IMG/VR virus record: IMGVR_UViG_3300017746_004916
Location: 1-31,400 of that record
DNA: 31,400 bases
Reading direction: 5' to 3' (one strand)
From: a virus
Shown one piece after another: positions 1 through 17,061 of this stretch. Positions within the stretch are counted from its first letter, which is position 1, and every line of letters starts with the position of its first letter. The position numbers and the translations under genes were made by a program. The notes under the pieces were generated by a model. It had not been told where the DNA came from, did not search any database, and was given only the letters and a program-made list of their open reading frames with translations.

Positions 1-2937
1 TCAGGCGTAAACTTTAGAGGAACATATGGTTCAGCTGGAACAGTATATGCTCCTGACGATTTGATTTCAACTGCAACATCAGTTTATATTGCTAATAAAA
101 CGTTTACTGCATCTGGAAACTTTGCTGCTGATTTAGCAAATGCAGATTCACTAATGACTCTATTCATTGCAGGTGGAGCAAGTTCTCTTCCTACAATCGA
201 TTCAAATGCTATCGGTAAAGTTGTTACGGTAAACCCAGGTGCATCAGGTTATACACTATCTTATGCAGATGATGATGTAAATACATACTATGTTTCAGCA
301 GATTCAGATGTTGGTAGAGATGATTCCAATTATGGTAGATCTAAAAACTCACCATTTAGAACAATTAACTTTGCATCTAAATTCATTCATAAGAATAAAA
401 CTCAAGACTCAGCTGCGGTTATCCTATTAGGACAAGGCGAGTTTTATGAAAATTTACCAATTCATGTTCCACATAACACATCAGTTCTTGGAGCAGGACT
501 AAGAAATACAAAAGTTCTAGCAAAAACAGGTTATGATTCTGCTGATGCTATGTTCTATCTTAGAGATGCCAACTTGATTGAAGGTATTACTATGTCAGGT
601 ATGACAGGCTTTGTGGCAGATTCTGCTGGCGGAGATCCTGTTAATATTGAGAAAGCTACATATAAAGGTGCATTCTTTAAACTAGATCCAAATTATCCGA
701 TTGTCAATAAATCACCATATATTAAAGATTGTTCTGCATTCTCAACTGGTGGTATTGGAGCGATTGTTGATGCTGGTCACTGGGACGCAGCTAAAGCAGC
801 TGCTGGTTCATCTGTGGTCTCAATTGGTTCAATGGTATTCCATGCATTTACAAATATTCATTCAGATGGTGTAGGCTTCTGGATTAGAAATAATGGTAAA
901 GCTGAAATCGTATCTTGTTTCACATATTACTGTAAGTTTGGTTATGCTGCTTCTTCAGGTGGTCAAATCAGAGCACTTAACGGCAATAACTCTTATGGAA
1001 CATATGGTGCAGTAGGAGTTGGATTCGATTCAAACGAAACATCAAATGATGGTAAAGTTAGAGGATTCAATGTTGATTATAAAGATGGAACATTATCACT
1101 TGGCGAATTTGAAGATGGCGATGTAATCTTCCAGCCTAATAAACTTAAAAATGCTAAAAATATATCTCGTGGTACAACTATGAGAGTTACAACTGCTACT
1201 CCTCACTTGATGAATACAAAAGATAGAATTAAGTTTGATTCTGCTGGTATTTCTTCATGGGATTCGGATCTTACAGTTGGTAGAACAAGACCTATTAGAC
1301 ATATTCAAAAAGTAGATTCATTTAATTTTGATGTGTTTACAGATTCTGGTTTTGGTTCTCCAGTTAACTCATCTGTATTCGGTGCTAAGTCAGTAACTTC
1401 TGCTCAAATTACAGATATTACAAGATCTAATCCAATTTCAGTAACAGTATCATCTCACAACTTAGATAGTTATAATCTAATTCAAATCAAAAATGTAATT
1501 GGTATGACGCAAGTTAATAACCAGTTCTACATAGTTGATTCGCATGATGCAAATATTCTAAAACTAAAAGACGCTGATAATGAATATTTAACAATCACCG
1601 GCGATTCTTCTGGATTTGATGTAGCAGGTACAACTAAAGGTTCTGCGGTTTCTATCACAGGAACTGGAGCAATTGGCGGACACGGTTCAATAGACTTATA
1701 CAAAGGTTCAAGATATTACTTTGTTTTCGATAGTGCATTAGGAATTAAACACAATCCTTATCTATCAACTCTTGATTCTACACAGTGGGGTGCTAATTTA
1801 TTTAGTGGAGAATATTTAACAAACGTTAGAAATTCTAGAAGCAAAACAGGATTAAAAGTAACATTTGATTCTGCAGCTCCTGATACGCTATATCTTAACT
1901 CATCAAAAGTTAAGCAGCCAATTACATTAAATCTAACATCTCCTAATAGAGTGGATGCAACAGGATTTAGCGCATATACAACTGGCGGTACAGCAACTTT
2001 CACTGACTCAGGGTTTGACTTTGATTCTTCAGCCTTTAGTTACATAGGAACAAGAGCAACAATTGTTAATTCACAAACAGCAATTAATAGACTAATTGTT
2101 GAAAATCAAATCGACGGTTCTGGTTTCATTGCAGGCGATTCAATTCAAGAATCAGGAGGAGATACTTTTGCTATCCTTAAAGATTCAGCCGCTACACACG
2201 GTCAGGTTGGATTTACAATGGCATTTGAAGGATTCTCTGTAGAACCAAAAGAAGGTGGTTCTGTATCATTTGCAACAGATTCAGGATTAACCTCTGATTC
2301 AGGTTATGATTCATTCAGTTATGTTATTCAATCAACAACCGGTTGGGACTCAGCAACAGGTAAAGTAGTCTTAGTATTCTCTTCTCAGAAGTTAGAAACA
2401 AGTCCAGCTTACCATGGGCAAGTTGCTCGAATTAGATATAGATATAGTCAAGCAAGACTAACTGGTCATGATTTCTTGAACATTGGACAAGGTAATAAAA
2501 CCCAAACTAATTATCCGGGTACTCCTAATTTGCCAGCTGCTCAAGGAAATGAAGTTGAAGAAAGAGATACGGGGCGAGTTTATTTCGTCTCTACTGACCA
2601 AGACGGTAACTTTAGAGTAGGTAACTACTTCCGGATTGATCAGGCAACGGGTAGAGCAACACTAGATGCATCTGCCTTCGACCTTGCAGGTCTTACATCA
2701 TTGAGACTTGGTTCAATTGGAGCTAAGCTAGGTGAACAAATTAATGAGTTCTCTTCTGATGGTACATTGGCAGGTGGCTCAAATAAGGCAGTTCCAACGG
2801 AGCAAGCAGTGAAAACTTATGTAGACACTCAAATTCAGGTACATGCCGCCAGAACTTATGGATCGACAACGACCGGCGGAATGGCATTTGAACAATATAT
2901 AGATTTTGATGGACTAGATCTATCAGGTGATAAATAA
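1..2937 (+). CDS. Beta-helical tail fibre/spike structural protein, 5'-partial
   Basis: The reading frame is already open at base 1, so this is the C-terminal 978 residues of a longer protein; the TTG at 61 is not a convincing start. Residues about 90-320 read like a pectin-lyase-type right-handed beta-helix (patterns such as SPFRTINFA, GEFYENLPIHVP, SVLGAGLRNTKV). This fold is usual in phage tailspikes and large fibre proteins of marine T4-like phages. The C-terminus carries a fibre-type segment (RVYFVSTDQDGNF, then VPTEQAVKTYV) like the ends of other long-tail-fibre subunits. It heads a run of putative adhesin genes, so a role in host contact on the virion is inferred. Asp-Ser dipeptides are very frequent (26, against about 6 Ser-Asp), mostly written GATTC. 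Exact fibre position and receptor are unknown. Confidence 0.75.
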   Translation, partial: SGVNFRGTYGSAGTVYAPDDLISTATSVYIANKTFTASGNFAADLANADSLMTLFIAGGASSLPTIDSNAIGKVVTVNPGASGYTLSYADDDVNTYYVSADSDVGRDDSNYGRSKNSPFRTINFASKFIHKNKTQDSAAVILLGQGEFYENLPIHVPHNTSVLGAGLRNTKVLAKTGYDSADAMFYLRDANLIEGITMSGMTGFVADSAGGDPVNIEKATYKGAFFKLDPNYPIVNKSPYIKDCSAFSTGGIGAIVDAGHWDAAKAAAGSSVVSIGSMVFHAFTNIHSDGVGFWIRNNGKAEIVSCFTYYCKFGYAASSGGQIRALNGNNSYGTYGAVGVGFDSNETSNDGKVRGFNVDYKDGTLSLGEFEDGDVIFQPNKLKNAKNISRGTTMRVTTATPHLMNTKDRIKFDSAGISSWDSDLTVGRTRPIRHIQKVDSFNFDVFTDSGFGSPVNSSVFGAKSVTSAQITDITRSNPISVTVSSHNLDSYNLIQIKNVIGMTQVNNQFYIVDSHDANILKLKDADNEYLTITGDSSGFDVAGTTKGSAVSITGTGAIGGHGSIDLYKGSRYYFVFDSALGIKHNPYLSTLDSTQWGANLFSGEYLTNVRNSRSKTGLKVTFDSAAPDTLYLNSSKVKQPITLNLTSPNRVDATGFSAYTTGGTATFTDSGFDFDSSAFSYIGTRATIVNSQTAINRLIVENQIDGSGFIAGDSIQESGGDTFAILKDSAATHGQVGFTMAFEGFSVEPKEGGSVSFATDSGLTSDSGYDSFSYVIQSTTGWDSATGKVVLVFSSQKLETSPAYHGQVARIRYRYSQARLTGHDFLNIGQGNKTQTNYPGTPNLPAAQGNEVEERDTGRVYFVSTDQDGNFRVGNYFRIDQATGRATLDASAFDLAGLTSLRLGSIGAKLGEQINEFSSDGTLAGGSNKAVPTEQAVKTYVDTQIQVHAARTYGSTTTGGMAFEQYIDFDGLDLSGDK
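2929..2936 (+). promoter_or_regulatory. Possible weak late promoter (GATAAATA)
   Basis: One mismatch (first base) to the T4 late-promoter box TATAAATA, lying over the stop of the fibre gene and 57 nt before the next start. It could equally be chance in AT-rich sequence around a stop codon. Confidence 0.3.
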
Positions 2938-3418: not shown

Positions 3419-3424
3419 TAAATA
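3417..3424 (+). promoter_or_regulatory. Possible weak late promoter (AATAAATA)
   Basis: One mismatch to TATAAATA, beginning in the stop codon of the upstream gene and 28 nt before the next start, which heads the Cys/Gly-rich gene run. Position is right for a late promoter but the match is not exact. Confidence 0.3.
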
Positions 3425-3451
3425 GTAACTAATAGATGGAGCTAATATAAA

Positions 3452-4366
3452 ATGGCAAAATACTTATCACAGAAAATTAGAGCTGGCGCTCCAGATATTA
3501 CTAAATGGGACGGCTGGTGCTCTTGGACTTTTGTGCCGAATAATATCAATACTTATGATAATTCGCCATGCGAGTACTTAAGACATAGAACACATTGGTG
3601 TGTTCCAGCTGGAATCACTTGTGCCTTTATAGAAATATGGGGCGGCGGTGGAGAAGGTGCAGGAGGATGTTGTTGTTCTGTATCTACACCATCTGGTGCA
3701 GGAGCTTACGCTTATAAAACAGTAAAAGTTATGGAAGGCGACTGTTACTTTGTTCACGCAGGGTGGCAGTTTTGTTGTAGATCTTCAGCAGGAGGAAATA
3801 TTACAGCAGGACCAAGAACGGCTGATAGAAAAACTTATGTAATTGGCCCAGGTCTTACTAACTTCTGTGCTGAAGTTGGATATCCGGGAATGTCAGTATG
3901 TTGTCCTAGACAATATCTAGATTCTTCAGATTCAGCAACTAGATTTAGAGCTAAATCTTTTCAACCGGGCGATTCAGGTTGTGCAAGATACTATGGTGGA
4001 GACGGCGGTGCAGTTGGTCTTCCAGGGATGATGCAATTACCTTCATATGATTCAGCAGCAGATTCTGCAAGATCAGTGACATTTGGTAATCAGCCTAAGA
4101 CATGGAAAGCACTTGTTCCTTACCCAGGCGGCTGGTTTGATTGTAAAGGTGGTCATATTGTAGTAAGATATTGTGGAACACAAGCAGCAGGATTAGGTGG
4201 TCAAGAACTTTCTAACAAAACTGGTGAGGCAATGGGCCGAAGTTGTACATGTCATCCACATTATATCGAATCAGGGTTTGGTGTTATGGGAGGTTGGACA
4301 ACAGCAGATGCAATTTGTTGTGGTGCTCCTTCAAGACCAGGGCGTGTAAGAATCACATATCGTTAA
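3452..4366 (+). CDS. Gly/Cys-rich putative adhesin, paralog 1 (type A)
   Basis: 304 aa with 20 cysteines. The N-terminus starts MAKYLSQKIRAGAP. A central block (IEIWGGGGEGAGGCCC, then GAGAYAYKTVKV and GPGLTNFCAE) and a C-terminal block (CCGAPSRPGRVRITYR) are shared with three following genes. Closest in the window is the protein at 6767-7684, which shares AYAYKT and GPGLTNFCAE. No signal peptide or membrane segment is seen. Glycine-rich blocks recall the polyglycine-helix adhesin tips (gp38 type) of T-even phages, but no homology to gp38 can be claimed. The fibre-gene neighbourhood suggests a receptor-binding or fibre-tip protein. The Cys content is remarkable for a protein assembled in the cytoplasm. 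Several DS motifs occur at residues about 157-210. Confidence 0.6.
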   Translation: MAKYLSQKIRAGAPDITKWDGWCSWTFVPNNINTYDNSPCEYLRHRTHWCVPAGITCAFIEIWGGGGEGAGGCCCSVSTPSGAGAYAYKTVKVMEGDCYFVHAGWQFCCRSSAGGNITAGPRTADRKTYVIGPGLTNFCAEVGYPGMSVCCPRQYLDSSDSATRFRAKSFQPGDSGCARYYGGDGGAVGLPGMMQLPSYDSAADSARSVTFGNQPKTWKALVPYPGGWFDCKGGHIVVRYCGTQAAGLGGQELSNKTGEAMGRSCTCHPHYIESGFGVMGGWTTADAICCGAPSRPGRVRITYR

Positions 4367-4383
4367 ACGTTAGGTAGGCTTAA

Positions 4384-5541
4384 ATGGCAAAAAATTTACG
4401 AAAATTCGCTCCGGGCTATTCGGATGTTACGCCAGCCGATGACGTTTGCGAACTTATATTTTTAGAAAATAGACAAAACAGTCAAACTGAGCAAAGCGCA
4501 ATTTACGGCGCTCAGTGTGGAAGATGGTGTGTTCACGCTGGCGCTGGTACAGTACCAAGAAATGACTCTGATTGGGCTAGGCCTAAAACACTAATGTGGG
4601 ACATATTTGCTCCTGGGTCTGGTGGCTGGGGTGGTTGTTGCTGTATGGGTGGAACATTAGGTGGTGGTGGACTTCATCTTCGAGAACGTCATTGCGCAAT
4701 CCCAGGCGATACATATTGTATGGTAATTGGATCCGCTGGATGTTGTATGCCATCATCGCGAGACAGAGGTTGTAATAGTTGTGTAAGATCAGCCGCAACA
4801 TGTTGTCATTCGTTTGTATCAGCAGGTCACTGTGGTTGGGGTGCTTGTTATTTTGATTACTGCTGTTATGATTGTTCAAATGGATCTCCAAATACTGCAA
4901 GAGACAAATACGGAATAAGTTTGGCTTTTAAAACGACAGCAAAAGCTCATTGTAGTTGTTATAGCTTAGGTGGTTATTCAACACAAACAGGTTGTGCTTG
5001 GGCAAGTGGTCAAAATATTGGTAGAGAACCTTGGTCAGCATCAAGACAATATTGTGGTGGTAAAAACTGTATTCCAAAAACTGATAAAAAAGGATTAGCT
5101 CCTTACCCAGGCGGCGGTGTTACATCAGGTTGTAAAATGTGGGAATTTGGTGACAACTGTATGGCCTCTGGCGAATGTCTTAAGAGAATGAAAAACGAAG
5201 TTCATAAATTTGGTATGTCTTTTGATATTAATGAATGTTATAATGGATGTGCAGTTTGGTCATGTGGAACTAAGAAATTTGCTAGAGTACAATATAACGA
5301 TCCTTTACATCATACATCAGGTGCAGCATATATTAATTACACTCAAGTTAACACTAATGCATGGGGTGGATGGAATTGGAGTGCGTGGATGCATTGTAAA
5401 TTAGGTGCAGGTGGAAAAAACAATTGTCAGCAAAACTTAAGAACTATTGGAATGCCGGGTGCACCAGCACAAGTTTGTGGTGGCGGTTGTTGCTGTGGTG
5501 GACAAGGCGCTAACGGTGCCATTATACTTAGATATAGATAG
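4384..5541 (+). CDS. Gly/Cys-rich putative adhesin, paralog 2 (type B)
   Basis: 385 aa with 36 cysteines (about 9%). It begins MAKNLRKFAPG, has NDSDWARPK near residue 60, GGWGGCCCMGG near 80, an aromatic Cys cluster (CYFDYCCYDC) near 155, and ends GGGCCCGGQGANGAIILRYR. It is the near twin of the next gene, sharing the N-terminus, QCGRWC/SCGRWC, the NDSDW motif and the CCCGG end. No catalytic motif was recognised. It is probably a virion surface or fibre-tip protein from its context. The start is ATG at 4384, only 17 nt after the previous stop, with a weak Shine-Dalgarno (TAGG). Confidence 0.6.
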   Translation: MAKNLRKFAPGYSDVTPADDVCELIFLENRQNSQTEQSAIYGAQCGRWCVHAGAGTVPRNDSDWARPKTLMWDIFAPGSGGWGGCCCMGGTLGGGGLHLRERHCAIPGDTYCMVIGSAGCCMPSSRDRGCNSCVRSAATCCHSFVSAGHCGWGACYFDYCCYDCSNGSPNTARDKYGISLAFKTTAKAHCSCYSLGGYSTQTGCAWASGQNIGREPWSASRQYCGGKNCIPKTDKKGLAPYPGGGVTSGCKMWEFGDNCMASGECLKRMKNEVHKFGMSFDINECYNGCAVWSCGTKKFARVQYNDPLHHTSGAAYINYTQVNTNAWGGWNWSAWMHCKLGAGGKNNCQQNLRTIGMPGAPAQVCGGGCCCGGQGANGAIILRYR

Positions 5542-5549
5542 GATATAGA

Positions 5550-6755
5550 ATGGCAAAAAATCTTAGAAAATTCGCTCCCGGCTTAAGTGATCAATTACCA
5601 AAAAATCATGATTATTGTGAATTTATTGTTCTAGATGCTAGAGTAAATGATGCAAGTAATAGTCGATCAGTGATCTACGGGAACTCATGTGGAAGATGGT
5701 GTGCACCAGCTGGGCAAGGAATGGTTCCTCGCAATGATTCAGATTGGGGTAGAGCTACAAATCTAAAATTACACGCGTGGTCAGCCGGTGGAGGTGGTGC
5801 TGGATCATGCTGTTGTATGTATGGTCACCCCGGCGGTGGCGGTTATTATATGCAGTCATGTAGAAAAATAAAAGAAGGCGAAACATATTGTTATGTCATG
5901 GGTCATGGCGGTTGCTGTTTTCCAGCATTAGGTGTAAGTGGTTGTTTCACATTAATTAGAGAAGCATCAAATTGTATAAGTAATTGTAACCAAGGCGGTT
6001 GGTGTGGTTATAGTAGTTGTTATTATGATTACTGTTGCTGGGATAGAACTGGCCAAGCTAGTGGTTGTCAAGCTGCATCCAATGCAGCAATGCCAAGAGC
6101 GTGTTATGATCCAATCGGTGCAACAGTACCATATAGATCGCATTGGATGGTTAAGAGTTCATGCGCATCTGGTTGGTTAAACTACATTCAGCCAACGTCT
6201 CTTCATGAGAAACAGTCTACTATGTTAGGCGGTCATGGTAGAAGACCATGGGATGCAGGAACTAATGTTACTAATAAAAACTCTATTCCGGGCGGAAACG
6301 ATAAAGCAAATGCTTATGAAAGACATCTACCTACAGTAGGACAAAGATACTGTCTTGCCGACAATTGTATGCACTCAGCTGAATGTTCAAATAAGCCTTA
6401 TACTCCAGCTGTTAGAGGTCATGGTTATGGTGGTCATGGTTACACGTCTATGAATTGCTTCACTGGTTGTGCAGCTTGGGTATGTGGAAATCATGATTGG
6501 ACTTGGGGTAATATGGATTATGACAGAACTTCAGGACCATCTTGGTTAAATACTCCACAACAAAATGCAAATATGACATGTGGTGGATGGAATTCAAGTC
6601 GCTGGTTATTGTGTATGTTAGGTGGTAACAACAATTTATGTTGGACAAATATTAGAACAGTCGGATATGGCGGTCAAGCCGCTAGAGTCTGTGCCGGACC
6701 ATGCTGTTGTGGCGGTTGGGGAATGCACGGATATATTAATTTTCAATACAGGTAA
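5550..6755 (+). CDS. Gly/Cys-rich putative adhesin, paralog 3 (type B)
   Basis: 401 aa with 33 cysteines. Same architecture as the preceding gene: MAKNLRKFAPG, CGRWC, RNDSDWGR, GGGGAGSCCCMYG, YYDYCCWD, and the terminal PCCCGGWGMHGYINFQYR. The middle (residues about 190-300) differs strongly from paralog 2, while both ends and the Cys frame are kept. That is what one expects of a duplicated receptor-binding protein with a variable centre. Only 8 nt separate it from the upstream gene, so they are probably co-translated. No enzyme signature was seen. Confidence 0.6.
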   Translation: MAKNLRKFAPGLSDQLPKNHDYCEFIVLDARVNDASNSRSVIYGNSCGRWCAPAGQGMVPRNDSDWGRATNLKLHAWSAGGGGAGSCCCMYGHPGGGGYYMQSCRKIKEGETYCYVMGHGGCCFPALGVSGCFTLIREASNCISNCNQGGWCGYSSCYYDYCCWDRTGQASGCQAASNAAMPRACYDPIGATVPYRSHWMVKSSCASGWLNYIQPTSLHEKQSTMLGGHGRRPWDAGTNVTNKNSIPGGNDKANAYERHLPTVGQRYCLADNCMHSAECSNKPYTPAVRGHGYGGHGYTSMNCFTGCAAWVCGNHDWTWGNMDYDRTSGPSWLNTPQQNANMTCGGWNSSRWLLCMLGGNNNLCWTNIRTVGYGGQAARVCAGPCCCGGWGMHGYINFQYR

Positions 6756-6766
6756 AGGTATAAAAA

Positions 6767-7684
6767 ATGGCTAAAAAATTATCGACTATCCTGCCAGTGA
6801 CGGATATGGCATCCGGCCGATTTAAGGGTCAAAGCATATTCTGGAAACCTGGTGTTGAGGGATATGAATCAGGTCTAACTATGAGAGCAGCCGAAATTGG
6901 TGCTGGTGTTCATAGTTGGAAAGTTCCAAGCGGTGCAAGTCTTGCTACATTCGAAGTCTGGGGAGGAGGCGGAGGCGGCGCAGCTGCTTTCTGTTGTCAA
7001 CAAGGAATCCCTGGTGGTTCAGGAGCATACGCTTATAAAACTATTAAAGTTACTCCCGGAAACTGTTATGTATTTTGTACTGACATACAAGTACACTGTT
7101 GTAATAATGGTCCTCAAGATGCTAGAGTCTATGGTAAAAGAGGTGGAACAACATCGATTACTGGCCCAGGTCTTACTAACTTCTGTGCTGAAGGTGGTAA
7201 CCCAGGCGTAACATGTTGTTGGTTCTTTGAAGCATATAGACATAATGAATATATGTACATGTGTGATCTTTTAGGAAGACAAATCGAAGATTCTGATTCA
7301 GATGTTATGAGAAGAGCTAGATTCTTTGGTACAAATACTGGAGCACGAGGAAACGTAGGATTTGTACAAACGGGTTGTTGTGGTTCTGCTTGGACAGCAG
7401 CAAACTTCTGTGGAATGAAAACTGCAACTCCTTTCCCTGGTGGCTTAGCTATGTGGGGTAGAAGTGGTAAAGGTGGTGTGAACCATAAAGGTCTTAACTA
7501 TTATTGCCAATGTTATATGGATATTCACGATGGTGCCTCAGGTAGAGCGGCGCACTCAGTTATTGGAGCGTCTTGGCATTCTAGGGTCCCAGGTGAAGGT
7601 GGATTATCAGCGGCGACTATGGCAGGTCCTTGTTGTTGTGGAGGCCAAGGTGCTTTTGGTGCCGTAAGAGTTAATTGGGAGTAA
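6767..7684 (+). CDS. Gly/Cys-rich putative adhesin, paralog 4 (type A)
   Basis: 305 aa with 18 cysteines. It shares with paralog 1 the central GGGGGGAAAFCC, GAYAYKTIKV and GPGLTNFCAE blocks, and with the whole family the AGPCCCGGQGAFGAVRV ending. The four genes are thus arranged type A-B-B-A. IEDSDSDVM lies in a probable surface loop. It is followed after 3 nt by the possible chaperone gene. The role is inferred as fibre tip or decoration; the Cys-triplet blocks could be disulphide- or metal-stabilised, which cannot be decided from sequence. Confidence 0.6.
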   Translation: MAKKLSTILPVTDMASGRFKGQSIFWKPGVEGYESGLTMRAAEIGAGVHSWKVPSGASLATFEVWGGGGGGAAAFCCQQGIPGGSGAYAYKTIKVTPGNCYVFCTDIQVHCCNNGPQDARVYGKRGGTTSITGPGLTNFCAEGGNPGVTCCWFFEAYRHNEYMYMCDLLGRQIEDSDSDVMRRARFFGTNTGARGNVGFVQTGCCGSAWTAANFCGMKTATPFPGGLAMWGRSGKGGVNHKGLNYYCQCYMDIHDGASGRAAHSVIGASWHSRVPGEGGLSAATMAGPCCCGGQGAFGAVRVNWE

Positions 7685-7687
7685 AAA

Positions 7688-8380
7688 ATGGAAAAAATTA
7701 CAAAAACTTTTAAGTACGCACTTCCTGATGAATATACAGGACAAACTAGTACTCAAAAATTAGAAGGCACTTGGACATATAAAGGCCCAAGATATCTAAA
7801 CTTAGAACTTTCAAACTCTGGTATTAATACAGCAGTTCCTTTGACGAGCTGGGAAGACTTTATGAATCTAACCGAAGATAATGAAACTGATGAAGAAAAT
7901 ATTCTTCTTGATTGCATAGATTCAGAACATGCTTTACTTGCTACAATATTTTATGGAAATAAAGATTCTGACCTTAGTGACTCAGACGTGTTTCCACATT
8001 TAGCAGTAACTTTACCAAATGGTCAGGTTTATAAACGACCTAATCCTACTGCGCCAGATCATACATATGACGCACAAAGAATGAAGTGGGATCGCGCAAA
8101 TGAAACATTTAAAAAGCCATACCCTTGGTTTAAACCATTTATAAACTGGGAAAGTCAGGATATTGCAATAGCTAATGAAAGAATTTTATATGAAGAAACA
8201 AAAGCTAAATCTAGTTGGAATGATCTAAGTGCAGATGAAAAAGCTGCCTGGGATACATGGGATTCTGATCTAGGTTCTATTTCGGCTAGAATGAAAGCAC
8301 AAGGACTAAGATCATATCAATATGTACCAACACCATGGCCGGGAATGCCAGCTGCGTATGTAGAAGACTCTGACGGCTAA
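7688..8380 (+). CDS. Possible tail-fibre assembly chaperone-like protein
   Basis: 230 aa, acidic. The last 70 residues (WNDLSADEKAAWDTW, then YVPTPWPGMP) resemble the 'LSxEEKAAWxxYRxxLRDLP...WP' tail typical of phage tail-fibre assembly chaperones; I see this as a pattern, not a proven homology. The N-terminal half (TWTYKGPRYLNLEL, VFPHLAVTLPNG) looks beta-rich and may bind or form part of a fibre. Its position immediately after the four adhesin-like genes fits a chaperone or last fibre component. Five Asp-Ser motifs, four of them Asp-Ser-Asp, occur in a small protein, including the C-terminal EDSDG. Confidence 0.45.
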   Translation: MEKITKTFKYALPDEYTGQTSTQKLEGTWTYKGPRYLNLELSNSGINTAVPLTSWEDFMNLTEDNETDEENILLDCIDSEHALLATIFYGNKDSDLSDSDVFPHLAVTLPNGQVYKRPNPTAPDHTYDAQRMKWDRANETFKKPYPWFKPFINWESQDIAIANERILYEETKAKSSWNDLSADEKAAWDTWDSDLGSISARMKAQGLRSYQYVPTPWPGMPAAYVEDSDG

Positions 8381-8409: not shown

Positions 8410-8461
8410 CCGATAAAGACAAGTTATATAATTTTTTAGAATTTACACGTGAGGTGATTAA

Positions 8462-9418
8462 GTGGAAAAAAGAAACACGGCGTTTTTCGTCAATGGCGGA
8501 GCTGGTAGAGTACTTAGCTCCGTCCCTGCTTTTGAAAGATATGAAGAAGAAAATCCTACAGATGATTTTATTATTGTCTGTGAAGGTGGTATGGAAATGT
8601 TTGCAGGACATCCTACTCTACATGCTAGATGCTTTGACAACTGGCATAAAGGTTTATTTAAAGACAAAATTAAAGATCGTAACTGTGTAAGTCTTGAGCC
8701 TTATAGAGTATGGGAATATTATAATCAAAAAGCAAATTTAAGTCAAGCTTTCGATATTGAAATGTCTGGTAAAGGCGTTAGAGATATGAAACCTCCTAGA
8801 GTGCATTTGGCTTCAGGTGAAGTTGCTGAAGGCCGCGCTATGGTTAAAGAAGTAAAAGAGCACACAGCTAAACAAAGAGTTGTTGTATTTCAGCCTTATG
8901 GAAGAAGTACTCAGCCAATTGGTGATAATTTAGTTGACTCTGGTGGAAGAAGCTTTCATCCAGATGATGTAGTTAAAATTGTTAAAAAATTGCAAGCAAA
9001 ATATGGCGTTATTGTTATGTCAGAATTTCCTGCAGACTTTCAAGCAATGGGTTGTCCTGATAAAGTAGCTCAACCTGAAAATGCTCCACTAAGAATGTGG
9101 TCATCAATTATTCAAGCAGCTGATGTATTTTTAGGATGTGATAGTGTAGGACAACATATGGCATATGCATTAGAAACACCAGCGGTTGTTTGTGTAGGCG
9201 CAACTTATCCAGAAAATGTTAGTTATCAAGACAACAATAAATTTCAAGTATTAGATGTTGCTCCTGATAGACGCATGTATGATCCAATTAGAATCTCAAT
9301 GGAAGATGAAATAGGAAGGCAAAACGACGGAATCATGAAATTAGATGATAAAGCAATAAGTGAAATTATTAAAGAGATTGATAAAAAGATTGCTACAGCT
9401 AATGGGAGAACTTCATAA
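8462..9418 (+). CDS. GT9-like glycosyltransferase (heptosyltransferase type)
   Basis: 318 aa, GTG start chosen because GAGGTG lies 5 nt upstream. The C-terminal half has the GT-B/GT9 pattern of ADP-heptose:LPS heptosyltransferases: VVVFQPYGRS near residue 140 for the donor-binding loop, then ADVFLGCDSVGQHMAYAL around 220-236 and TPAVVCVGATYPENV. Family knowledge says such enzymes move heptose from ADP-heptose to LPS core or, in some relatives, to protein. Here four ADP-heptose biosynthesis genes lie 3-8 kb away, which supports heptose as donor (inference). It overlaps the carbamoyltransferase gene by 1 nt (TAATG), so the two are translationally coupled. The acceptor is unknown: host LPS, virion protein or DNA are all possible. 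Confidence 0.7.
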   Translation: MEKRNTAFFVNGGAGRVLSSVPAFERYEEENPTDDFIIVCEGGMEMFAGHPTLHARCFDNWHKGLFKDKIKDRNCVSLEPYRVWEYYNQKANLSQAFDIEMSGKGVRDMKPPRVHLASGEVAEGRAMVKEVKEHTAKQRVVVFQPYGRSTQPIGDNLVDSGGRSFHPDDVVKIVKKLQAKYGVIVMSEFPADFQAMGCPDKVAQPENAPLRMWSSIIQAADVFLGCDSVGQHMAYALETPAVVCVGATYPENVSYQDNNKFQVLDVAPDRRMYDPIRISMEDEIGRQNDGIMKLDDKAISEIIKEIDKKIATANGRTS

Positions 9419-11229
9419 TGAGTGATTTGTGGATTGCAGGAATTTCAAGAGGACATAACGGAGCAGTTTGTTTACTTAAGAATGGAGAAATCGTTTTCTC
9501 TATTGAAGAAGAAAGATTAAGTCGCCGTAAATATGATGGTGCACCTTTAGCTGCTTTTTTGAAAATCAGAGAATATACTGAAAAACTAGATTATCTAGTG
9601 TTAGTGCATACTCAAGGTTTAGAAGTTGGAGGAAAATTAGAATTCTCTGGTGATGATGTTTATTCTGGAATAGCAAGAAAATTAGGAATGATTGAAGATC
9701 GTCAATGCACTGCAGATGAGCATCCTCAAGTTGTAGAGATTAGTGATCAACATCATAAGATGCATGCAGCAGCTGCGTTTTATAGATCACCATTTACAAG
9801 CGCGAGTGTAGTTGTTGCTGATGGTGCTGGTTCTAGTTTACCATATCAAGACGGAGTTACTGGAAGACCTACAGCTATTTGGGAATATGAAAGTATTTTC
9901 GAAGCAGCTTATCCTGCTATCTTTAAAACTAGATATAAACACGTAGGCACAGCAGATACTATTATGCCGCATTATTCTAAAGAAGTTGATGCTGAATTTT
10001 TAGGTGAACCGGGAAATCTAATTGAAGTTATGACTGACGATAGATGTGGAATTACTAAAGTCTATGAAGCTATTACTACATTTTTACAGTGGCAGCCAAT
10101 TGAAGCTGGAAAAACAATGGGGCTATTTCCTTATGGAGTAGAAAGTAATCTACCACCATTCTTTGATGAGCATGCACCAGCTCCTGGGTCATTTAATAGA
10201 AATCTGTTTATGCCAAATACTCCAAATGGAGCATTCTTAAATGTAAATTATTATGAGCAATTTGCTACAACACCAGAAGATTTTGAATCTGTTGGTGGAG
10301 ATATTACTAAATTATCAATTGCAAGAGACATTGCATATAAATGTCAAAAAGAAACACAGGCAGAATTAATTAAACTTATTCGTAAAGCTGTAGATAAAAC
10401 AGGAAACACTAATGTCATTGTGACAGGCGGATTTGGTTTAAACTGTGTTGCTAACTATGAGTACTTAGATGTCTTAAAGGATGAAGGTATTACTCTTTAT
10501 GTAGAACCTATTTCTAATGATGCAGGTACAGCAATTGGAGGCGCATTATATCATCACTATATGATGACTAATGATGATGAAGTTAGAGATTATGGTGCAA
10601 CATTATATCTTGGTCCAGAACAAGACTGGAATGAAGATGATGTAGAAGCTGTAATGGATGAGAATATGGAACTAACTGATGCAACATATGAAGATATTGT
10701 TGATTTGTTAGTCGATAAAAATATCGTTACTATCTTTCAAGGACGTTCAGAAAACGGCCCGAGAGCATTAGGTAATAGATCAATCTTATTTGATCCAACC
10801 TTTGAAGATGGTAAGGACTACGTGAATAGTGTGAAGAATCGAGAATATTTCCGGCCGTTTGCTGGAACAATTCTGGAAGAAGACGTACATAATTGGTTCG
10901 ATCTTCGTGGTATGGACAAATCACCTCACATGATGTATGCCGTAAATTGCCAACCCGGAGTTGAAGAAAAGATTCCAAGTATTATTCACGTAGACGGTTC
11001 ATGTAGAATTCAAACTGTAAGTAAAGAAGAAAATCTTCATTATCATAATTTGATTTCTGCATTTAAGAATAGAAAAGATGTTCCTATTCTATTTAATACT
11101 AGTTTTAATTTAGGTGGAGATCCATTAGTTGAAACTATTGCAGATGCTGTTGACACATTGAAACGATGTGATATTCAATATCTGTATCTTCCTGAAATCG
11201 AAAAACTATTAAAGGTACCAAACTCATGA
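9418..11229 (+). CDS. Carbamoyltransferase, NodU/CmcH/TobZ family, two-domain
   Basis: 603 aa, normal length for the family. The N-terminal Kae1-like domain begins WIAGISRGHNGAVCL with EEERLSRRK, has the metal/substrate histidines in DQHHKMHAAAAFY near residue 115, and VTGGFGLN and PISNDAGTAIGGALY near 335-380. The C-terminal YrdC-like domain has GRSENGPRALGNRS from residue 442, the family's hallmark. These enzymes make carbamoyl-adenylate from carbamoyl phosphate and ATP and transfer the carbamoyl group to a sugar hydroxyl. The gene is coupled to the upstream glycosyltransferase (1-nt overlap) and the downstream 2OG oxygenase (ATGA overlap). A sugar-decorating operon is therefore likely; the substrate is not known. 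Confidence 0.9.
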   Translation: MSDLWIAGISRGHNGAVCLLKNGEIVFSIEEERLSRRKYDGAPLAAFLKIREYTEKLDYLVLVHTQGLEVGGKLEFSGDDVYSGIARKLGMIEDRQCTADEHPQVVEISDQHHKMHAAAAFYRSPFTSASVVVADGAGSSLPYQDGVTGRPTAIWEYESIFEAAYPAIFKTRYKHVGTADTIMPHYSKEVDAEFLGEPGNLIEVMTDDRCGITKVYEAITTFLQWQPIEAGKTMGLFPYGVESNLPPFFDEHAPAPGSFNRNLFMPNTPNGAFLNVNYYEQFATTPEDFESVGGDITKLSIARDIAYKCQKETQAELIKLIRKAVDKTGNTNVIVTGGFGLNCVANYEYLDVLKDEGITLYVEPISNDAGTAIGGALYHHYMMTNDDEVRDYGATLYLGPEQDWNEDDVEAVMDENMELTDATYEDIVDLLVDKNIVTIFQGRSENGPRALGNRSILFDPTFEDGKDYVNSVKNREYFRPFAGTILEEDVHNWFDLRGMDKSPHMMYAVNCQPGVEEKIPSIIHVDGSCRIQTVSKEENLHYHNLISAFKNRKDVPILFNTSFNLGGDPLVETIADAVDTLKRCDIQYLYLPEIEKLLKVPNS

Positions 11230-11822
11230 TATGGCTAACAAACCCACAACCAGTAAATACATACTGGGAAAAAGCAAGAAATAAACTTTCTGAAGAAAGT
11301 CAACAAATTCTAACTGATTATGTTGAAGCTAATAAAGATCAATTAATGGCTGGTGAAACTAAATCAGAAGATGACGATGGAGCTAAAGATCTACTAACAC
11401 GCAATAGTAAAATTATGTGGATTGAAAATAATGAAGCCACTGGACAACTTTATTGGGAAATCGGTCAAATGATTATCGCACTAAATAATGATAAGTGGAA
11501 TTTTAATATTGATATGCTTGAAAGTCTGCAATATGCAGAATACGAAGAAGGCGGTCATTACGCTCAGCATTCTGATGATAGTATGGTATGTGATGCAGGA
11601 GAAAACGTTAGAAAACTTTCTTTCAGTATTCTTATAAGTGAACATGATGATTTTGAGGGTGGTGCTTTAGATCTAAGTATGTTTGCACCTGAATGGGATG
11701 GAAATATTGAGCAAGGTGAAATGATTTCATTTCCATCAATGATGCCACATATAGTTCAACCTGTAACTAAAGGTAAAAGAAAAGTGTTGGTTGGCTGGGC
11801 AAGAGGACCTCGTTGGGTCTAA
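11226..11822 (+). CDS. 2OG-Fe(II) oxygenase (prolyl-4-hydroxylase/PKHD-like)
   Basis: 198 aa. The jelly-roll signature is complete: iron ligands His115-x-Asp117 (YAQHSDDS) and His175 (MMPHIVQPV), with Arg185 (KGKRKVLVGW) to bind 2-oxoglutarate. DFEGGALDL and ISFPS motifs match the PKHD-type hydroxylases common in marine T4-like phages. It would hydroxylate an unknown substrate (protein side chain, sugar or nucleobase) using O2 and 2-oxoglutarate. Its start overlaps the carbamoyltransferase stop (ATGA), so the two are co-expressed. It meets the GmhB-like gene head-on with a 4-nt overlap and no terminator between them. Confidence 0.85.
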   Translation: MIWLTNPQPVNTYWEKARNKLSEESQQILTDYVEANKDQLMAGETKSEDDDGAKDLLTRNSKIMWIENNEATGQLYWEIGQMIIALNNDKWNFNIDMLESLQYAEYEEGGHYAQHSDDSMVCDAGENVRKLSFSILISEHDDFEGGALDLSMFAPEWDGNIEQGEMISFPSMMPHIVQPVTKGKRKVLVGWARGPRWV

Positions 11823-12469
11823 AATAAAGTATCAGCGAAATCTAAAAATGTGTCGTATACTAATGTTCTGTTCTTTAATGCTTTGTTTGCAAAGCTGTCT
11901 AATTTCGAAAGATCTGATACTTCAGAACGTACCAGAACAGGCAACAGTCCGGCTTTCATGGCCATTTTAGCGTCCATTACTTGGTCGCCAATATAATAAC
12001 CATTTTTATACGGCACATTAAATTCGTCACGTAATCTTCTAAACATTCCTACTTTAGGTTTACCAAACATATCTGATTTGTGATTTGATTCATTATATAA
12101 AATACCGTCAATGCTAGGGCAATTATATTGTCCTAGTAATTCAATAACATAATTGTTTATATCATCTACCTGTGCATGCGTAACTAATCCAGCACTAATC
12201 CCAGGTTGGTCATGAATCATAGCAATTTTAAATCCTCTATGTCTAAGCTTTGCTACAGCAATGAAAGATTCTTTTATTGGTCTTGCTGATTCACGTGAAA
12301 GAATAGGATTACCATCAGTTTCAAACATAACACCATCTCGATCAAATGCTACTAGAGGTCTAGGATATTTTGCGTTTAGTTGTTCTCTATTAAGTTGGAA
12401 ATCTTCATTTACTTTTTCACCATTAGGATTCGATGTTGTTGGTTGATCACCCCACATATTATAAGTCAT
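11819..12469 (-). CDS. gmhB: HAD phosphatase, GmhB-like (D,D-heptose 1,7-bisphosphate phosphatase)
   Basis: 216 aa. HAD motif I is FDRDG (Asp43, Asp45), motif II is in IHDQPGISAG (cf. TNQSGIxRG of GmhB), then Lys137-Pro138, and motif IV is GDQVMD (Asp162, Asp166). In the ADP-heptose pathway this enzyme removes the 7-phosphate from heptose-1,7-bisphosphate. It differs from textbook GmhB: an N-terminal polar extension of about 36 residues, and only one Cys where the zinc loop usually has three or four. Histidinol-phosphatase or another HAD sugar phosphatase is the alternative. It is the last gene of a left-going operon, overlapping hldD by 11 nt, and that context favours the heptose role. Confidence 0.65.
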   Translation of the reverse strand: MTYNMWGDQPTTSNPNGEKVNEDFQLNREQLNAKYPRPLVAFDRDGVMFETDGNPILSRESARPIKESFIAVAKLRHRGFKIAMIHDQPGISAGLVTHAQVDDINNYVIELLGQYNCPSIDGILYNESNHKSDMFGKPKVGMFRRLRDEFNVPYKNGYYIGDQVMDAKMAMKAGLLPVLVRSEVSDLSKLDSFANKALKNRTLVYDTFLDFADTLF

Positions 12470-13274
12470 TGTTAATATAATCCTCTACTTTAGTAAACTC
12501 ATAATGGCCACAAGTACTTAATAGCTTGTCTGTATTTGCACATGTATACTTTTGATATTGGCTTTTTAGATTATCAGGCATCTTAATGTATTTTACTTCT
12601 TTCTCATATTTATCTGCAATAGCTAATCCAATTGTTTCAAAACTAACAGCACGGCCTGTTCCAATATTATAGATTCCTGATATTTTTCGATTCATCATTC
12701 TTTCATGTATTTCACAAATATCATTTACACAAATAAAGTCTCTATAATATAGATGTGAGTCTTCGAATAAAGAAATAGTTTTTTGTTTTTTAAATTTAGT
12801 TACAGGAGATGCTTGGTTTCCTTTATGATCTTCATAATCTCCATAAACATTAAAATATCTAAAACCTTGAATTTGTTGTTTATGGATAATAGTATTAACG
12901 TGCCTGTCTAAATAATATTTAGACCAAGCATAGCCGTTCATAGGAGATTTTTTAGCACCTTCTTTGAAATCTTCTGGAGTTTCTCCAATACCATACACAC
13001 TGGCAGAAGAAGCATACTGGATTGGAATATTATGCTCAGCACAACGCTCAAACAGTTTAACCGAAAACTTATAATTTTTTTCGTATAATAAATCTGCATT
13101 AGTTTCAGTAGTAGATGATATTGCACCTAGATGTATACAATAATCTATTCCATCCCAATCTAATCCCCAATCAAAAGGCGTATCTCTTTTAACGATATCA
13201 TGACCAAGAGATTCAAAATGTTTTATCATATTTTTACCGATAAATCCTTTAGATCCGGTTATTAGTAACTTCAT
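12459..13274 (-). CDS. hldD: ADP-L-glycero-D-manno-heptose 6-epimerase (HldD/RfaD-like)
   Basis: 271 aa (about 310 in E. coli). An extended SDR: Rossmann GSKGFIG at residues 7-13, HLGAISSTTE at 48-57, Tyr115-x3-Lys119, then GFRYFNVYG, DFICVNDICE and SGIYNIGTGRA. The SSTTE, GFRYFNVYGD.E.HKG and NIGTGRA.SF strings match HldD specifically as I remember it, rather than GalE or RmlB. It converts ADP-D-glycero- to ADP-L-glycero-manno-heptose using NADP. The gene overlaps the kinase gene by 26 nt and gmhB by 11 nt, so the three form one translational unit. Confidence 0.85.
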   Translation of the reverse strand: MKLLITGSKGFIGKNMIKHFESLGHDIVKRDTPFDWGLDWDGIDYCIHLGAISSTTETNADLLYEKNYKFSVKLFERCAEHNIPIQYASSASVYGIGETPEDFKEGAKKSPMNGYAWSKYYLDRHVNTIIHKQQIQGFRYFNVYGDYEDHKGNQASPVTKFKKQKTISLFEDSHLYYRDFICVNDICEIHERMMNRKISGIYNIGTGRAVSFETIGLAIADKYEKEVKYIKMPDNLKSQYQKYTCANTDKLLSTCGHYEFTKVEDYINNDL

Positions 13275-14127
13275 TAATTGCCTCCGCTAGTTTGTTAGGG
13301 TTTATTGAGTATGTTCCAATATGTTTAACTGCTTCACCTGACATTATATTTGCTATAATAACAGATTTAAATATTTCAATATTCATATCGCAACATATTG
13401 CTAATGTTGCTGTAAAAGTATCACCTGCACCTGTAACATCAAAAACTTCAGTTTCAACAGCTGGATAATGTTCAATAACATCTCCAACGTATAATACTCC
13501 TTCAGATCCTAATGTAACCATAAAGTGTTCAATATCTAAGTCGTCTCTAACTCTTCTAGCGTGTACTAAAAGTTGTTTTGCTGTAAGGTTTTCTTCGCCA
13601 ATATATTCTTCAAATTCTTTTCTATTTGGCTTTAGAATATAAGCACCTTTATATTCAACCAAAGGTTTCTTAGGATCTACAATACATCTCTTACTTTTTT
13701 CAATAATGTTTTTAGCATACTTGATTGTTCCTTTATTATAATCAGATAATACAACAATGTCCATATCATTAAATATTTTAAAATTATCTTCTATCTCTTG
13801 ACTTTCAATAAATTCTTCAACATCAACTCGAGATAACATAAAATTATCACTCAACACACGAACTTTGTGTGGCATTATTTTTGTTTTTACTATATTTCCA
13901 TGTGCATTTATTTTCTTTAATATATAATAATGTATATCATCACAGTAACCATGTAATGAAACTTTATTAGTTGCTGCTCTGATATTCATATAAGTATTAC
14001 CAGCGCCTCCTAAAGATATCTTTTTCTTTTTTAAATTGACAATTGGAATCGGCGCTTCAGGTGATAATCTTGTCGATGTACCATACCAATATTCGTCGAT
14101 TATGATGTCGCCTATAACATGAATCAT
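13249..14127 (-). CDS. hldE1: HldE kinase domain as stand-alone gene (heptose-7-phosphate 1-kinase)
   Basis: 292 aa, equal to the N-terminal PfkB/ribokinase half of bifunctional HldE (RfaE1). Motifs: VIGDIIIDEYWYG and LSPEAPIPIV at the start, LGGAGNTYMNI, VLSDYNKGTI, LKPNRKEFEEYIG, and the catalytic DVTGAGDTF with GAGD at 233-236. It phosphorylates D-glycero-D-manno-heptose-7-phosphate at C1. The nucleotidyltransferase half is a separate gene 2.5 kb away, upstream on the same strand. A Shine-Dalgarno GGAG precedes the ATG. The divergent gap to the heme oxygenase start is only 22 nt, so there is almost no room for a normal promoter. Confidence 0.88.
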   Translation of the reverse strand: MIHVIGDIIIDEYWYGTSTRLSPEAPIPIVNLKKKKISLGGAGNTYMNIRAATNKVSLHGYCDDIHYYILKKINAHGNIVKTKIMPHKVRVLSDNFMLSRVDVEEFIESQEIEDNFKIFNDMDIVVLSDYNKGTIKYAKNIIEKSKRCIVDPKKPLVEYKGAYILKPNRKEFEEYIGEENLTAKQLLVHARRVRDDLDIEHFMVTLGSEGVLYVGDVIEHYPAVETEVFDVTGAGDTFTATLAICCDMNIEIFKSVIIANIMSGEAVKHIGTYSINPNKLAEAINEVTNNRI

Positions 14128-14144
14128 TAACTACTCCATGAGGT

Positions 14145-14152
14145 TATTTATG
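14145..14152 (-). promoter_or_regulatory. Possible late-promoter-like box (CATAAATA) for the heptose genes
   Basis: Read on the minus strand this is CATAAATA, one mismatch to TATAAATA, 17 nt upstream of the HldE-kinase start and overlapping the heme oxygenase start codon. The leader would be very short. It is listed because it is the only candidate promoter in the 22-nt divergent gap. Confidence 0.25.
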
Positions 14153-15399: not shown

Positions 15400-16329
15400 T
15401 TAATTTGGCTTATTGTTTTTTATTTTGGAGTGGAGATAATAAAGTACAGCTCCGGATGAAGAACCACCATCTCCGGGATTAAGCGGCACATATAAATCCC
15501 GCCAAGGAAATTCTTTAGTTATTCTATTTCTAACACCTTGGTTAAACGCGCATCCTCCTGTTAAAATAAAATTAGTAAAATTGCCTGACCAATGTTTAAA
15601 GATTTTTATAATTAGATCTTCGAAAACAATTTGCGTTGCATATGCAATGTCTTCAGGCGAATATTTTTTAAACTTATCTCCTATACCTCTATGAAAATTT
15701 TCAGTAAACATTGGTGCCCATGGATGAGCAATAATCATTCTTTCCACATCTCTTAAACAATTTTTAGTTGATAACTTAAGTGGTCCTGTTTTTGTTTTTA
15801 TTGAATTTGCCAGTTCTTCAAATTTCTTTTCTTCTTTATTAGGAATAAATCCAGCTGCTTTTGTCATAGCGCTATAAAATAAACCTAAACTATCTGGGTA
15901 ATTCACTTTGCCTATCATCTTCATTTTTAATCCATAAGCAGCCCAAACCGTTGTACAATTAAATTCACCAATAGAATCAATTGATACAATAATTGCTTTA
16001 TCAAATCCACTGTTATAATATGCAGCAGCATGACTTGCATGGTGTGGGACATAATCCCATTTATAATTAAGATCTAGTTCTTTTAATATTTTTGAAACAT
16101 TATTACGACTTATAAAGTTAGATTGACCAGCCATCATTTGTCTTAATCCTTTTAAATAAGGATTCTCATACCATATAATTTTATCAGGTTTAGCTACAGC
16201 TTTACACAAATTTATCATATCTTCATCATGATATTTTTTATCTGAATTAATTGAATATAATTTGTTTGCATCATCATACACTGAGATTGACGCATCATGG
16301 CCGTGACCAGACATTCCCCAATAAATCAT
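15400..16329 (-). CDS. Carbamoyltransferase-like, N-terminal (Kae1-like) domain only
   Basis: 309 aa against about 600 for the family. It has the N-domain marks: MSGHGHDASISV, PHHASHAAAYYNSGF (His96, His97, His100), ILTGGCAFNQGVRN and VPLNPGDGGSSSGAVLYY. The reading frame stops just after that last block. The YrdC-like C-domain, which in TobZ forms carbamoyl-adenylate, is absent and there is no remnant: the next gene (pcyX) converges 4 nt away. Either it borrows carbamoyl-adenylate from the full-length enzyme at 9418-11229, or it has another activity. It overlaps the cupin gene by 4 nt (ATGA) and has a good Shine-Dalgarno (AAAGGTGA). Confidence 0.8.
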   Translation of the reverse strand: MIYWGMSGHGHDASISVYDDANKLYSINSDKKYHDEDMINLCKAVAKPDKIIWYENPYLKGLRQMMAGQSNFISRNNVSKILKELDLNYKWDYVPHHASHAAAYYNSGFDKAIIVSIDSIGEFNCTTVWAAYGLKMKMIGKVNYPDSLGLFYSAMTKAAGFIPNKEEKKFEELANSIKTKTGPLKLSTKNCLRDVERMIIAHPWAPMFTENFHRGIGDKFKKYSPEDIAYATQIVFEDLIIKIFKHWSGNFTNFILTGGCAFNQGVRNRITKEFPWRDLYVPLNPGDGGSSSGAVLYYLHSKIKNNKPN

Positions 16330-16685
16330 TTTTGACTATCACCTTTCATAATTCTATAATTATCTTCTACAGAATCTGGAGTTGATACTTCTACTAATAT
16401 ACCAGCTTTTTTACAAAAGACTTGATGAGGTTCACACGGATCATTATGATAGACATCACCTTCTTTTAATACAGTTCTTTGTACTTCAGCATTCTCTGTC
16501 ATAATTTTTGTAACTAAGAATTCACCATTTAAGCATAACCAAGTTTCCATTTTTTCTTTATGAAAATGCATTGAAAACTTAGAACCTTCTTTAAAAGATA
16601 ATAGTTTACCACAATACTTATCATTTGTAGCAAAGATAAGCTCGTGACCCCAGCCTTTCTCTACAAAGCCTTTAAGTTTTGTCAT
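16326..16685 (-). CDS. Small cupin protein (sugar isomerase/epimerase-like)
   Basis: 119 aa single cupin. It starts with KGWGHELIFATNDKYCGK, like the C-terminal half of type II phosphomannose isomerases and capsule-gene cupins. It then has the metal-binding MHFHKEKMETW motif (residues about 39-49) and a second strand motif GDVYHNDPCEPHQVF. It is a likely metal-binding sugar or sugar-phosphate modifying protein. It lies between the HldE nucleotidyltransferase domain (14-nt overlap) and the short carbamoyltransferase (4-nt overlap), so it is probably part of the same glycan pathway. The true substrate is unknown; a regulator or binding role is possible. Confidence 0.7.
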   Translation of the reverse strand: MTKLKGFVEKGWGHELIFATNDKYCGKLLSFKEGSKFSMHFHKEKMETWLCLNGEFLVTKIMTENAEVQRTVLKEGDVYHNDPCEPHQVFCKKAGILVEVSTPDSVEDNYRIMKGDSQK

Positions 16686-17061
16686 TAATCCACTCCAAAA
16701 TTTTTGTAGAAGATTGATCTGGCACTGTTTCGAAAATCTTAATTAGTGCTAATCCATTACCTACAACCCAACTTGGTTCATAGTCTCCGCCTTTAGTAAT
16801 CATCCACGGTCTCACTTTTTTGATTAACTCTAAAGGAGTATCCTCTTCAAATATAATAACTTCATCAACATACCTAATTGCTTCTAGTACAATCTTTCTA
16901 TCTTTTTCGTTATGAAAGGATTCTCTTTTTATTCTTTTCATACTTTCATCAGAATTAAGACCAACTACAAGCTTATCTCCTAGTTCACGAGATTTTTTTA
17001 GATAATCTATATGACCAGGGTGTATGATGTCAAAACATCCATTAGTAAAAATTACGTTCAA
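16672..17061 (-). CDS. hldE2: HldE nucleotidyltransferase domain as stand-alone gene (ADP-heptose synthase)
   Basis: 129 aa, equal to the C-terminal half of HldE (RfaE2). Nucleotidyltransferase signature: VIFTNGCFDIIHPGHIDYL with His14-x-x-His17, then VGLNSDESMKRIK, DTPLELIKKVRPWMITKGGDY, and the closing SSTKILEWI. It joins heptose-1-phosphate to ATP to give ADP-heptose. The start is TTG, preceded by GGAG at good distance. It is the first gene of the left-going block, separated from its partner kinase gene by the cupin, the short carbamoyltransferase and the bilin cassette. Confidence 0.87.
   Translation of the reverse strand: MNVIFTNGCFDIIHPGHIDYLKKSRELGDKLVVGLNSDESMKRIKRESFHNEKDRKIVLEAIRYVDEVIIFEEDTPLELIKKVRPWMITKGGDYEPSWVVGNGLALIKIFETVPDQSSTKILEWINDKT

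Follow-up and report, generated by a model that had tools for sequence, protein, structure and literature searches.

The question raised by this locus is why a marine phage carries, directly behind its tail-adhesin genes, a heptosyltransferase-like open reading frame (ORF1), a carbamoyltransferase gene (ORF2) and a 2-oxoglutarate (2OG) oxygenase gene (ORF3), with analogues of the ADP-heptose pathway on the opposite strand, and what the products of these genes may modify. The window, that is the whole stretch of 31.4 kb (31,400 bases) taken from IMG/VR record IMGVR_UViG_3300017746_004916, is a fragment of a T4-like marine phage: T4-like structural genes are present and the portal protein stands at 64.5% to phage C48C1 and at 52.6% to Pelagibacter phage HTVC008M. 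The answer that we favour, and to which we give about an even chance, is that the phage makes its own ADP-heptose and that ORF1 and ORF2 attach heptose to its own tail adhesins and carbamoylate it.

The gene anatomy and the co-occurrence of these genes are solid. A previous reading made from the sequence alone (the sequence-only reading) had described the three genes as one coupled operon, and its description of the anatomy proved exact: the three plus-strand ORFs are intact, ORF1 and ORF2 overlap by 1 nucleotide (nt), ORF2 and ORF3 overlap by 4 nt, and all three follow the tail-adhesin genes. ORF1 has a GTG start, with a Shine-Dalgarno sequence (GAGGTG) at 8451-8456. Among 80 loci from viral contigs that were picked by ORF2 alone, ORF1 lies upstream of ORF2 within 3.5 kb in 74, the distance being within 40 nt in 50 loci and an overlap of 1 or 4 nt being frequent; as for the remaining six, ORF1 is directly downstream in two (L037, L082), while four (L013, L016, L050, L077) end near the gene, at the end of the contig. 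Conversely, ORF2 adjoins ORF1 in all seven full-length loci that were picked from genome collections by ORF1 alignment, several of which are phage-like loci in contigs of metagenome-assembled genomes (MAGs). The conserved unit is ORF1 plus ORF2, a near-obligate pairing and no chance arrangement. The coupled operon is conserved for these two genes but not for the oxygenase, which is accessory and whose orthologues occupy the same spot in the nearest relatives only (L002, L005-L008 and L011). Since any 2OG oxygenase, non-orthologous ones included, is found near the pair in only 19 loci in all, we dropped the idea that ORF3 is an obligate third partner. Two side observations concern the loci themselves: MAG contigs labelled Euryarchaeota or Neomarinimicrobiota (L096-L100) hold the same phage adhesin locus and are probably phage contigs binned into MAGs, and in one clade (L075, L078, L079, L081, L083, L084) ORF2 is placed between two ORF1 homologues (glycosyltransferase, carbamoyltransferase, glycosyltransferase).

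The sequence of ORF1 reveals its family poorly: its match to Pfam GT9 (PF01075) is sub-threshold (15.7 bits, against a curated cut-off of 22), its alignment with WaaC and WaaF by hhalign is weak (best Prob 46%), and a search of PDB sequences with the ORF1 profile found no glycosyltransferase, so that a fold search was needed. An AlphaFold2 model built with 46 homologues (pLDDT 94.9, pTM 0.92) was compared with the PDB using Foldseek, and ranks 1 to 30 were all taken by a Veillonella GT9 protein, TibC, WaaF and WaaC (E from 7e-10 to 1.4e-7). According to this model, the fold of ORF1 is a GT-B fold of the GT9/ADP-heptosyltransferase type. Its donor-side motif, GCDSVGQH, is the counterpart of DTGLSH in WaaC, and GCDSxGxH is kept in 86 of 89 homologues. 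The sequence-only reading had called ORF1 heptosyltransferase-like; the GT9 fold of the model bears this out, but the catalytic Asp of GT9 is replaced by Arg, for which reason ORF1 is GT9-like, of unproven activity, and no classical GT9 member. We infer catalysis from the modelled fold. Since this fold matches ADP-heptosyltransferases first, including the adhesin-modifying TibC, heptosylation of adhesins is favoured.

Distant relatives of ORF1 (24-28% identity) that keep the same motifs occur in Vibrio phage K479, where the gene stands directly before a tail gene, and in Aeromonas phage HJ05, where it lies among genes without names. Neither the C-domain of the carbamoyltransferase (ORF2) nor HldC was found in these two genomes, and this retention of the motifs without them favours a virion target. 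The hosts of these two phages would provide ADP-heptose for lipopolysaccharide (LPS).

ORF2 matches Carbam_trans_N (E=1.2e-20) and Carbam_trans_C (E=1.4e-56) in Pfam (PF02543 and PF16861), and 7xb6 (E=2.3e-50) and TobZ (E=2.6e-38) in the PDB. Residues H112, H116, D135, D368, R449, R475, R479 and R530 are invariant in all 88 aligned homologues, the first four being what we take, from TobZ, to be the metal ligands; in the alignment to TobZ, these four with R449 and R479 represent the metal and carbamoyl-adenylate sites. Judged from these matches, ORF2 is a full two-domain O-carbamoyltransferase of the NodU/TobZ type, with Kae1-like and YrdC-like domains and an intact catalytic site. Carbamoyltransferases linked to the pair form one well-supported clade (SH-aLRT 99). 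A second carbamoyltransferase, encoded at 15400-16329 on the minus strand, keeps the metal ligands and gave no match to the YrdC-like domain (PF16861); this half-size enzyme might take carbamoyl-adenylate from the full-length one. S-SSM7 and Sf-FS3 have similar half-size copies. Elsewhere, at 3364-5619 of an S-RIM44 locus (L092), a carbamoyltransferase extends over two ORFs directly 3' of a ThyX gene, a context unlike that of the pair.

The surroundings of the pair are conserved as well. Across distant phages the gene order is tail fibre, two small ORFs, Gly-rich proteins, an ORF of ~210-230 amino acids (aa), ORF1 and ORF2. For 62 loci the upstream region could be evaluated: 55 showed a Gly-rich ORF at most 7 kb away from the pair, and 51 showed an ORF of at least 800 aa at most 9 kb away. 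For Gly-rich neighbours, random ORFs gave 362 of 600, a weak control because the loci had been selected around the pair. Since the pair belongs to an adhesin locus, a virion target is favoured, and we propose the Gly/Cys-rich proteins at 3452..7684 as candidate sugar acceptors. The features of the window are the following.

61..2937, plus strand: tail fibre protein (phrog_9851 tail fiber, E=4.5e-148), its 5' end possibly beyond the fragment.
3452-4366, 4384-5541, 5550-6755 and 6767-7684, plus strand: four Gly/Cys-rich tail-adhesin-like proteins (phrog_4205, weak tail-protein matches).
7688..8380, plus strand: phrog_9740 protein, no function assigned, kept upstream of the ORF1-ORF2 pair by synteny.
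8462..9418, plus strand: ORF1 (318 aa), GT-B/GT9-like glycosyltransferase by predicted fold and motifs (phrog_8954), proposed heptosyltransferase.
9418..11229, plus strand: ORF2 (603 aa), NodU/TobZ-type O-carbamoyltransferase by Pfam and PDB matches.
11226..11822, plus strand: ORF3 (198 aa), PKHD-like 2OG-Fe(II) oxygenase (PF13640), accessory.
11819..12469, minus strand: GmhB-like HAD phosphatase (NF006506, E=1e-21, under the curated cut-off).
12459..13274, minus strand: HldD-like ADP-heptose epimerase (TIGR02197, E=3.9e-69, 233 bits, cut-off 274.6).
13249..14127, minus strand: HldA-like heptose-7-phosphate kinase (TIGR02198, E=2.7e-66, under cut-off).
15400..16329, minus strand: second carbamoyltransferase, Kae1-like half (PF02543, E=4.2e-25).
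16326..16685, minus strand: cupin of the heptose cassette (HxH...E...H), candidate for the missing isomerase step.
16672..17061, minus strand: HldC-like heptose-1-phosphate adenylyltransferase (TIGR02199, E=3.2e-40, under cut-off).

The HldC, HldA, GmhB and HldD analogues and the cupin thus lie on the strand opposite to ORF1-ORF3, interleaved with the half-size carbamoyltransferase gene and a pair of heme oxygenase-like and bilin reductase genes. The four enzymes are all best matches to their families and all score under the NCBIfam equivalog cut-offs, so that their assignment rests on best match plus joint occurrence, orthology being unproven. Across 26 long pair-bearing records, strong matches, defined as more than 100 bits for HldC, 180 bits for HldD and 150 bits for the cupin, occur in an identical set of 18. 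No more than 13 kb separates HldC from ORF2 in 16 of them; in G004 the two genes are 30 kb apart, and in G002 they are far apart. The joint occurrence in relatives of heptosyltransferase-like gene, carbamoyltransferase and ADP-heptose pathway, which the sequence-only reading had named as its own test, was consequently found, both for the pair (74 of 80) and for the heptose genes (18 of 26). The GmhA domain SIS_2 was found in none of the 26 related records and is absent from the profile matches of the window. The cassette cupin has an invariant metal-binding HxH...E...H site and a fold common to lyxose, phosphoglucose and phosphomannose isomerases and to many other cupins; this fold not being specific, replacement of GmhA by the cupin is no more than a suggestion. 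In the named phage collection, where the comparison covers more than 440 Synechococcus/Cyanophage records with a T4-type portal, many of them near-duplicates, the cupin is present in all 22 untruncated pair-bearing records, and 13 other records have it without the pair.

Some further observations touch this cassette. The label 'phosphoheptose isomerase' of the small GC306 protein is doubtful, as its Pfam matches are sub-threshold and of HAD type, against a PHROG so named, and no SIS_2 domain was matched. In several records (G001:C1:190219-190944, and similarly G002, G003, G011 and G020) HldC-like and cupin matches share one frame of 257-281 aa, which looks like an adenylyltransferase-cupin fusion. 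A transketolase-like gene adjoins the heptose genes in P-TIM68 (L094, 5320-6465), and its predicted product could be a source of sedoheptulose-7-phosphate.

The pathway that we propose would run as follows. Isomerisation of a sugar of the pentose phosphate pathway would fall to host GmhA or, perhaps, to the cupin of the cassette, after which the HldA, GmhB, HldC and HldD analogues would yield ADP-heptose. ORF1 would then move heptose from ADP-heptose to the Gly-rich tail proteins whose genes lie shortly before its own; ORF2 would add a carbamoyl group, from carbamoyl phosphate and ATP, to a sugar hydroxyl. In the clade of the window only, the ORF3 oxygenase may first make a hydroxylated acceptor residue, or may hydroxylate the product. 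We infer the chemistry and the target, namely heptose as the donor, the adhesin as the acceptor, carbamoylation of that very heptose and the order of the steps. The larger proposal, that this is a widespread module combining self-made ADP-heptose, carbamoyl-heptose on receptor-binding adhesins, a GT9-fold enzyme with an Arg site and a cupin in place of GmhA, is tentative and on the doubtful side.

Several observations weigh against heptosylation of adhesins. In a profile alignment, the catalytic base of WaaC, D13, falls on Arg16 of ORF1, and GGxGR is found in 88 of 89 homologues. Strong heptose genes are missing from 8 of the 26 long pair-bearing records, which we read as fragments or as phages using host ADP-heptose. 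Some cyanophages that lack the pair have heptose-pathway genes too, clustered with other glycosyltransferases (S-T4, P-TIM68), so that the sugar is not exclusive to ORF1 and ORF2, and in P. aeruginosa the counterpart pair of functions acts on LPS (PMC8005017). Because of the S-T4 and P-TIM68 clusters, modification of the host surface is the main rival: the pair and the heptose genes would remodel O-antigen or another glycan, for example against superinfection or the loss of progeny on debris. LPS roles are favoured in passages of surveys of cyanophages (PMC3037559) and pelagimyophages (PMC7029224), and carbamoyl-heptose is known in Pseudomonas LPS. We nevertheless consider host-surface remodelling unlikely, given that the pair is located in the adhesin locus, apart from glycosyltransferase clusters, that the window showed no recognisable gene for a lipid carrier, flippase or ligase, and that the ORF1 relative of the unrelated Vibrio phage directly precedes a tail gene. 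Moreover, cyanobacterial LPS is without heptose (PMC4390846), and heptose made by a cyanophage is therefore unlikely to serve an LPS core.

The Asp-to-Arg change, which holds without exception even in distant relatives that have no sugar genes, would also fit a GT9-fold protein that transfers no sugar and acts as a chaperone or assembly factor of the adhesin, with ORF2 carbamoylating something else. This we find improbable in view of the ~30 invariant residues across 46 diverged sequences, the retained donor-side D-S-x-G-x-H and the close association with a metabolic enzyme and with genes for ADP-heptose. That the donor is another nucleotide sugar, with the co-occurring heptose genes feeding other enzymes, would accommodate the eight records without strong heptose genes, but it appears very unlikely to us when heptosyltransferases come first among the fold matches and heptose genes accompany the pair in 18 records, mostly linked. 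Hypermodification of phage DNA by ORF1 and ORF2 was largely rejected, and we would be most surprised if it applied. A related phage carbamoyltransferase does form 5-carbamoyloxymethyl-cytosine from 5-hydroxymethylcytosine (5hmC) in vitro (PMC8670742); however, a ThyA-type thymidylate synthase/dCMP hydroxymethylase (PF00303) is found in 0 of the 26 pair-bearing records, ORF2 keeps G452 and R454 in place of the C and T of the 5hmC enzyme at specificity positions named in that study, matching TobZ at two of the three such positions, and the 5hmC enzyme falls outside the clade of pair-linked carbamoyltransferases. The sequence-only reading had left the target open; the evidence favours tail adhesins over DNA and the host LPS core.

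Carbamoyl-heptose on adhesins would have partial parallels in known systems. The BAHT enzymes TibC and AAH (PMC4358343) share the GT-B fold close to ADP-heptosyltransferases, a gene beside an adhesin and ADP-heptose as presumed donor. They differ in that their four-Cys iron-finger is not conserved among the 46 ORF1 sequences, where a single Cys (C226) is near-invariant, in that the catalytic D110 of TibC, at the position of the WaaC base, is Arg in ORF1, and in that the phage module has a hypothesised tail-protein acceptor and an additional carbamoylation. Lacking the conserved iron-finger, ORF1 is outside the BAHT family, and TibC is a functional analogue. Carbamoylated heptose in Pseudomonas, to which the sequence-only reading had appealed, is real: the LPS core cluster includes the carbamoyltransferase gene wapO (PA5005), and WapO and the core heptosyltransferases share both functions with the phage pair, with carbamoyl on heptose (PMC8005017), but the acceptor is LPS, the genes are bacterial and the sequences of the phage ORF1 family stay under the GT9 threshold. 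The 5hmC carbamoyltransferase is likewise a phage enzyme of the NodU/TobZ type (PMC8670742), but it is linked to a thymidylate synthase, acts on hydroxymethylcytosine and has other signature residues and another clade. The idea of glycans on virion proteins has a precedent in the capsid and tail tube proteins of mycobacteriophages (Freeman 2023, cited in PMC12619734), where the hosts differ and the citing passage mentions neither a heptose pathway nor a carbamoyl group.

The claim that no such phage system was known went too far. The pair and the heptose cassette are present, annotated piecemeal, in P-SSM2, S-SSM7, S-CAM1 and Sf-FS3, and passages of Sullivan 2010 (PMC3037559) report T4-GC 304, 305, 307 and 308 as 'LPS genes' co-occurring in P-SSM2, S-SM2 and S-SSM7 and list GC303 as a carbamoyltransferase. 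We found that GC302, annotated as hypothetical, is an ORF1 homologue, that GC303 is an ORF2 homologue and that GC 304, 305, 307 and 308 are members of the heptose cassette. Those passages describe no heptosyltransferase-like GC302, no pair and no adhesin target, and a literature search, mostly without subscription papers, found no paper describing the ORF1-ORF2 pair in a phage. Since the genes were already in named phages, novelty holds for the idea and not for the genes, and overall the sequence-only reading is partly supported.

ORF3 matches 2OG-FeII_Oxy_3 (PF13640; E=1e-12), and its HxD...H...R site, read from the sequence and aligned to PiuC, comprises H115, D117, H175 and R185; on these grounds it is a PKHD-like 2OG oxygenase whose iron/2OG site is intact. 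Within the heptose cassette, 14138-15395 on the plus strand encodes a heme oxygenase-like protein (a weak phrog match, judged by eye) and a bilin reductase of the PcyA/PcyX type, and homologues of both genes lie close to the ORF1-ORF2 pair in many relatives. Downstream of tail genes, a plus-strand gene at 30554-31165 encodes a protein starting MKLYVSGDSFVDRH, which by eye resembles SGNH/GDSL hydrolases.

Phage adhesins are usually regarded as bare proteins. If the proposed heptosylation and carbamoylation are true, a conserved modification of this kind at the tail tip of abundant marine phages would matter for host range and for the evasion of defences, and also for the question why cyanophages carry a heptose pathway although the LPS of their hosts is without heptose. 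The orphan 'LPS genes' of cyanophages would then become a testable prediction in the cultured phages S-SSM7, S-CAM1 and P-SSM2.

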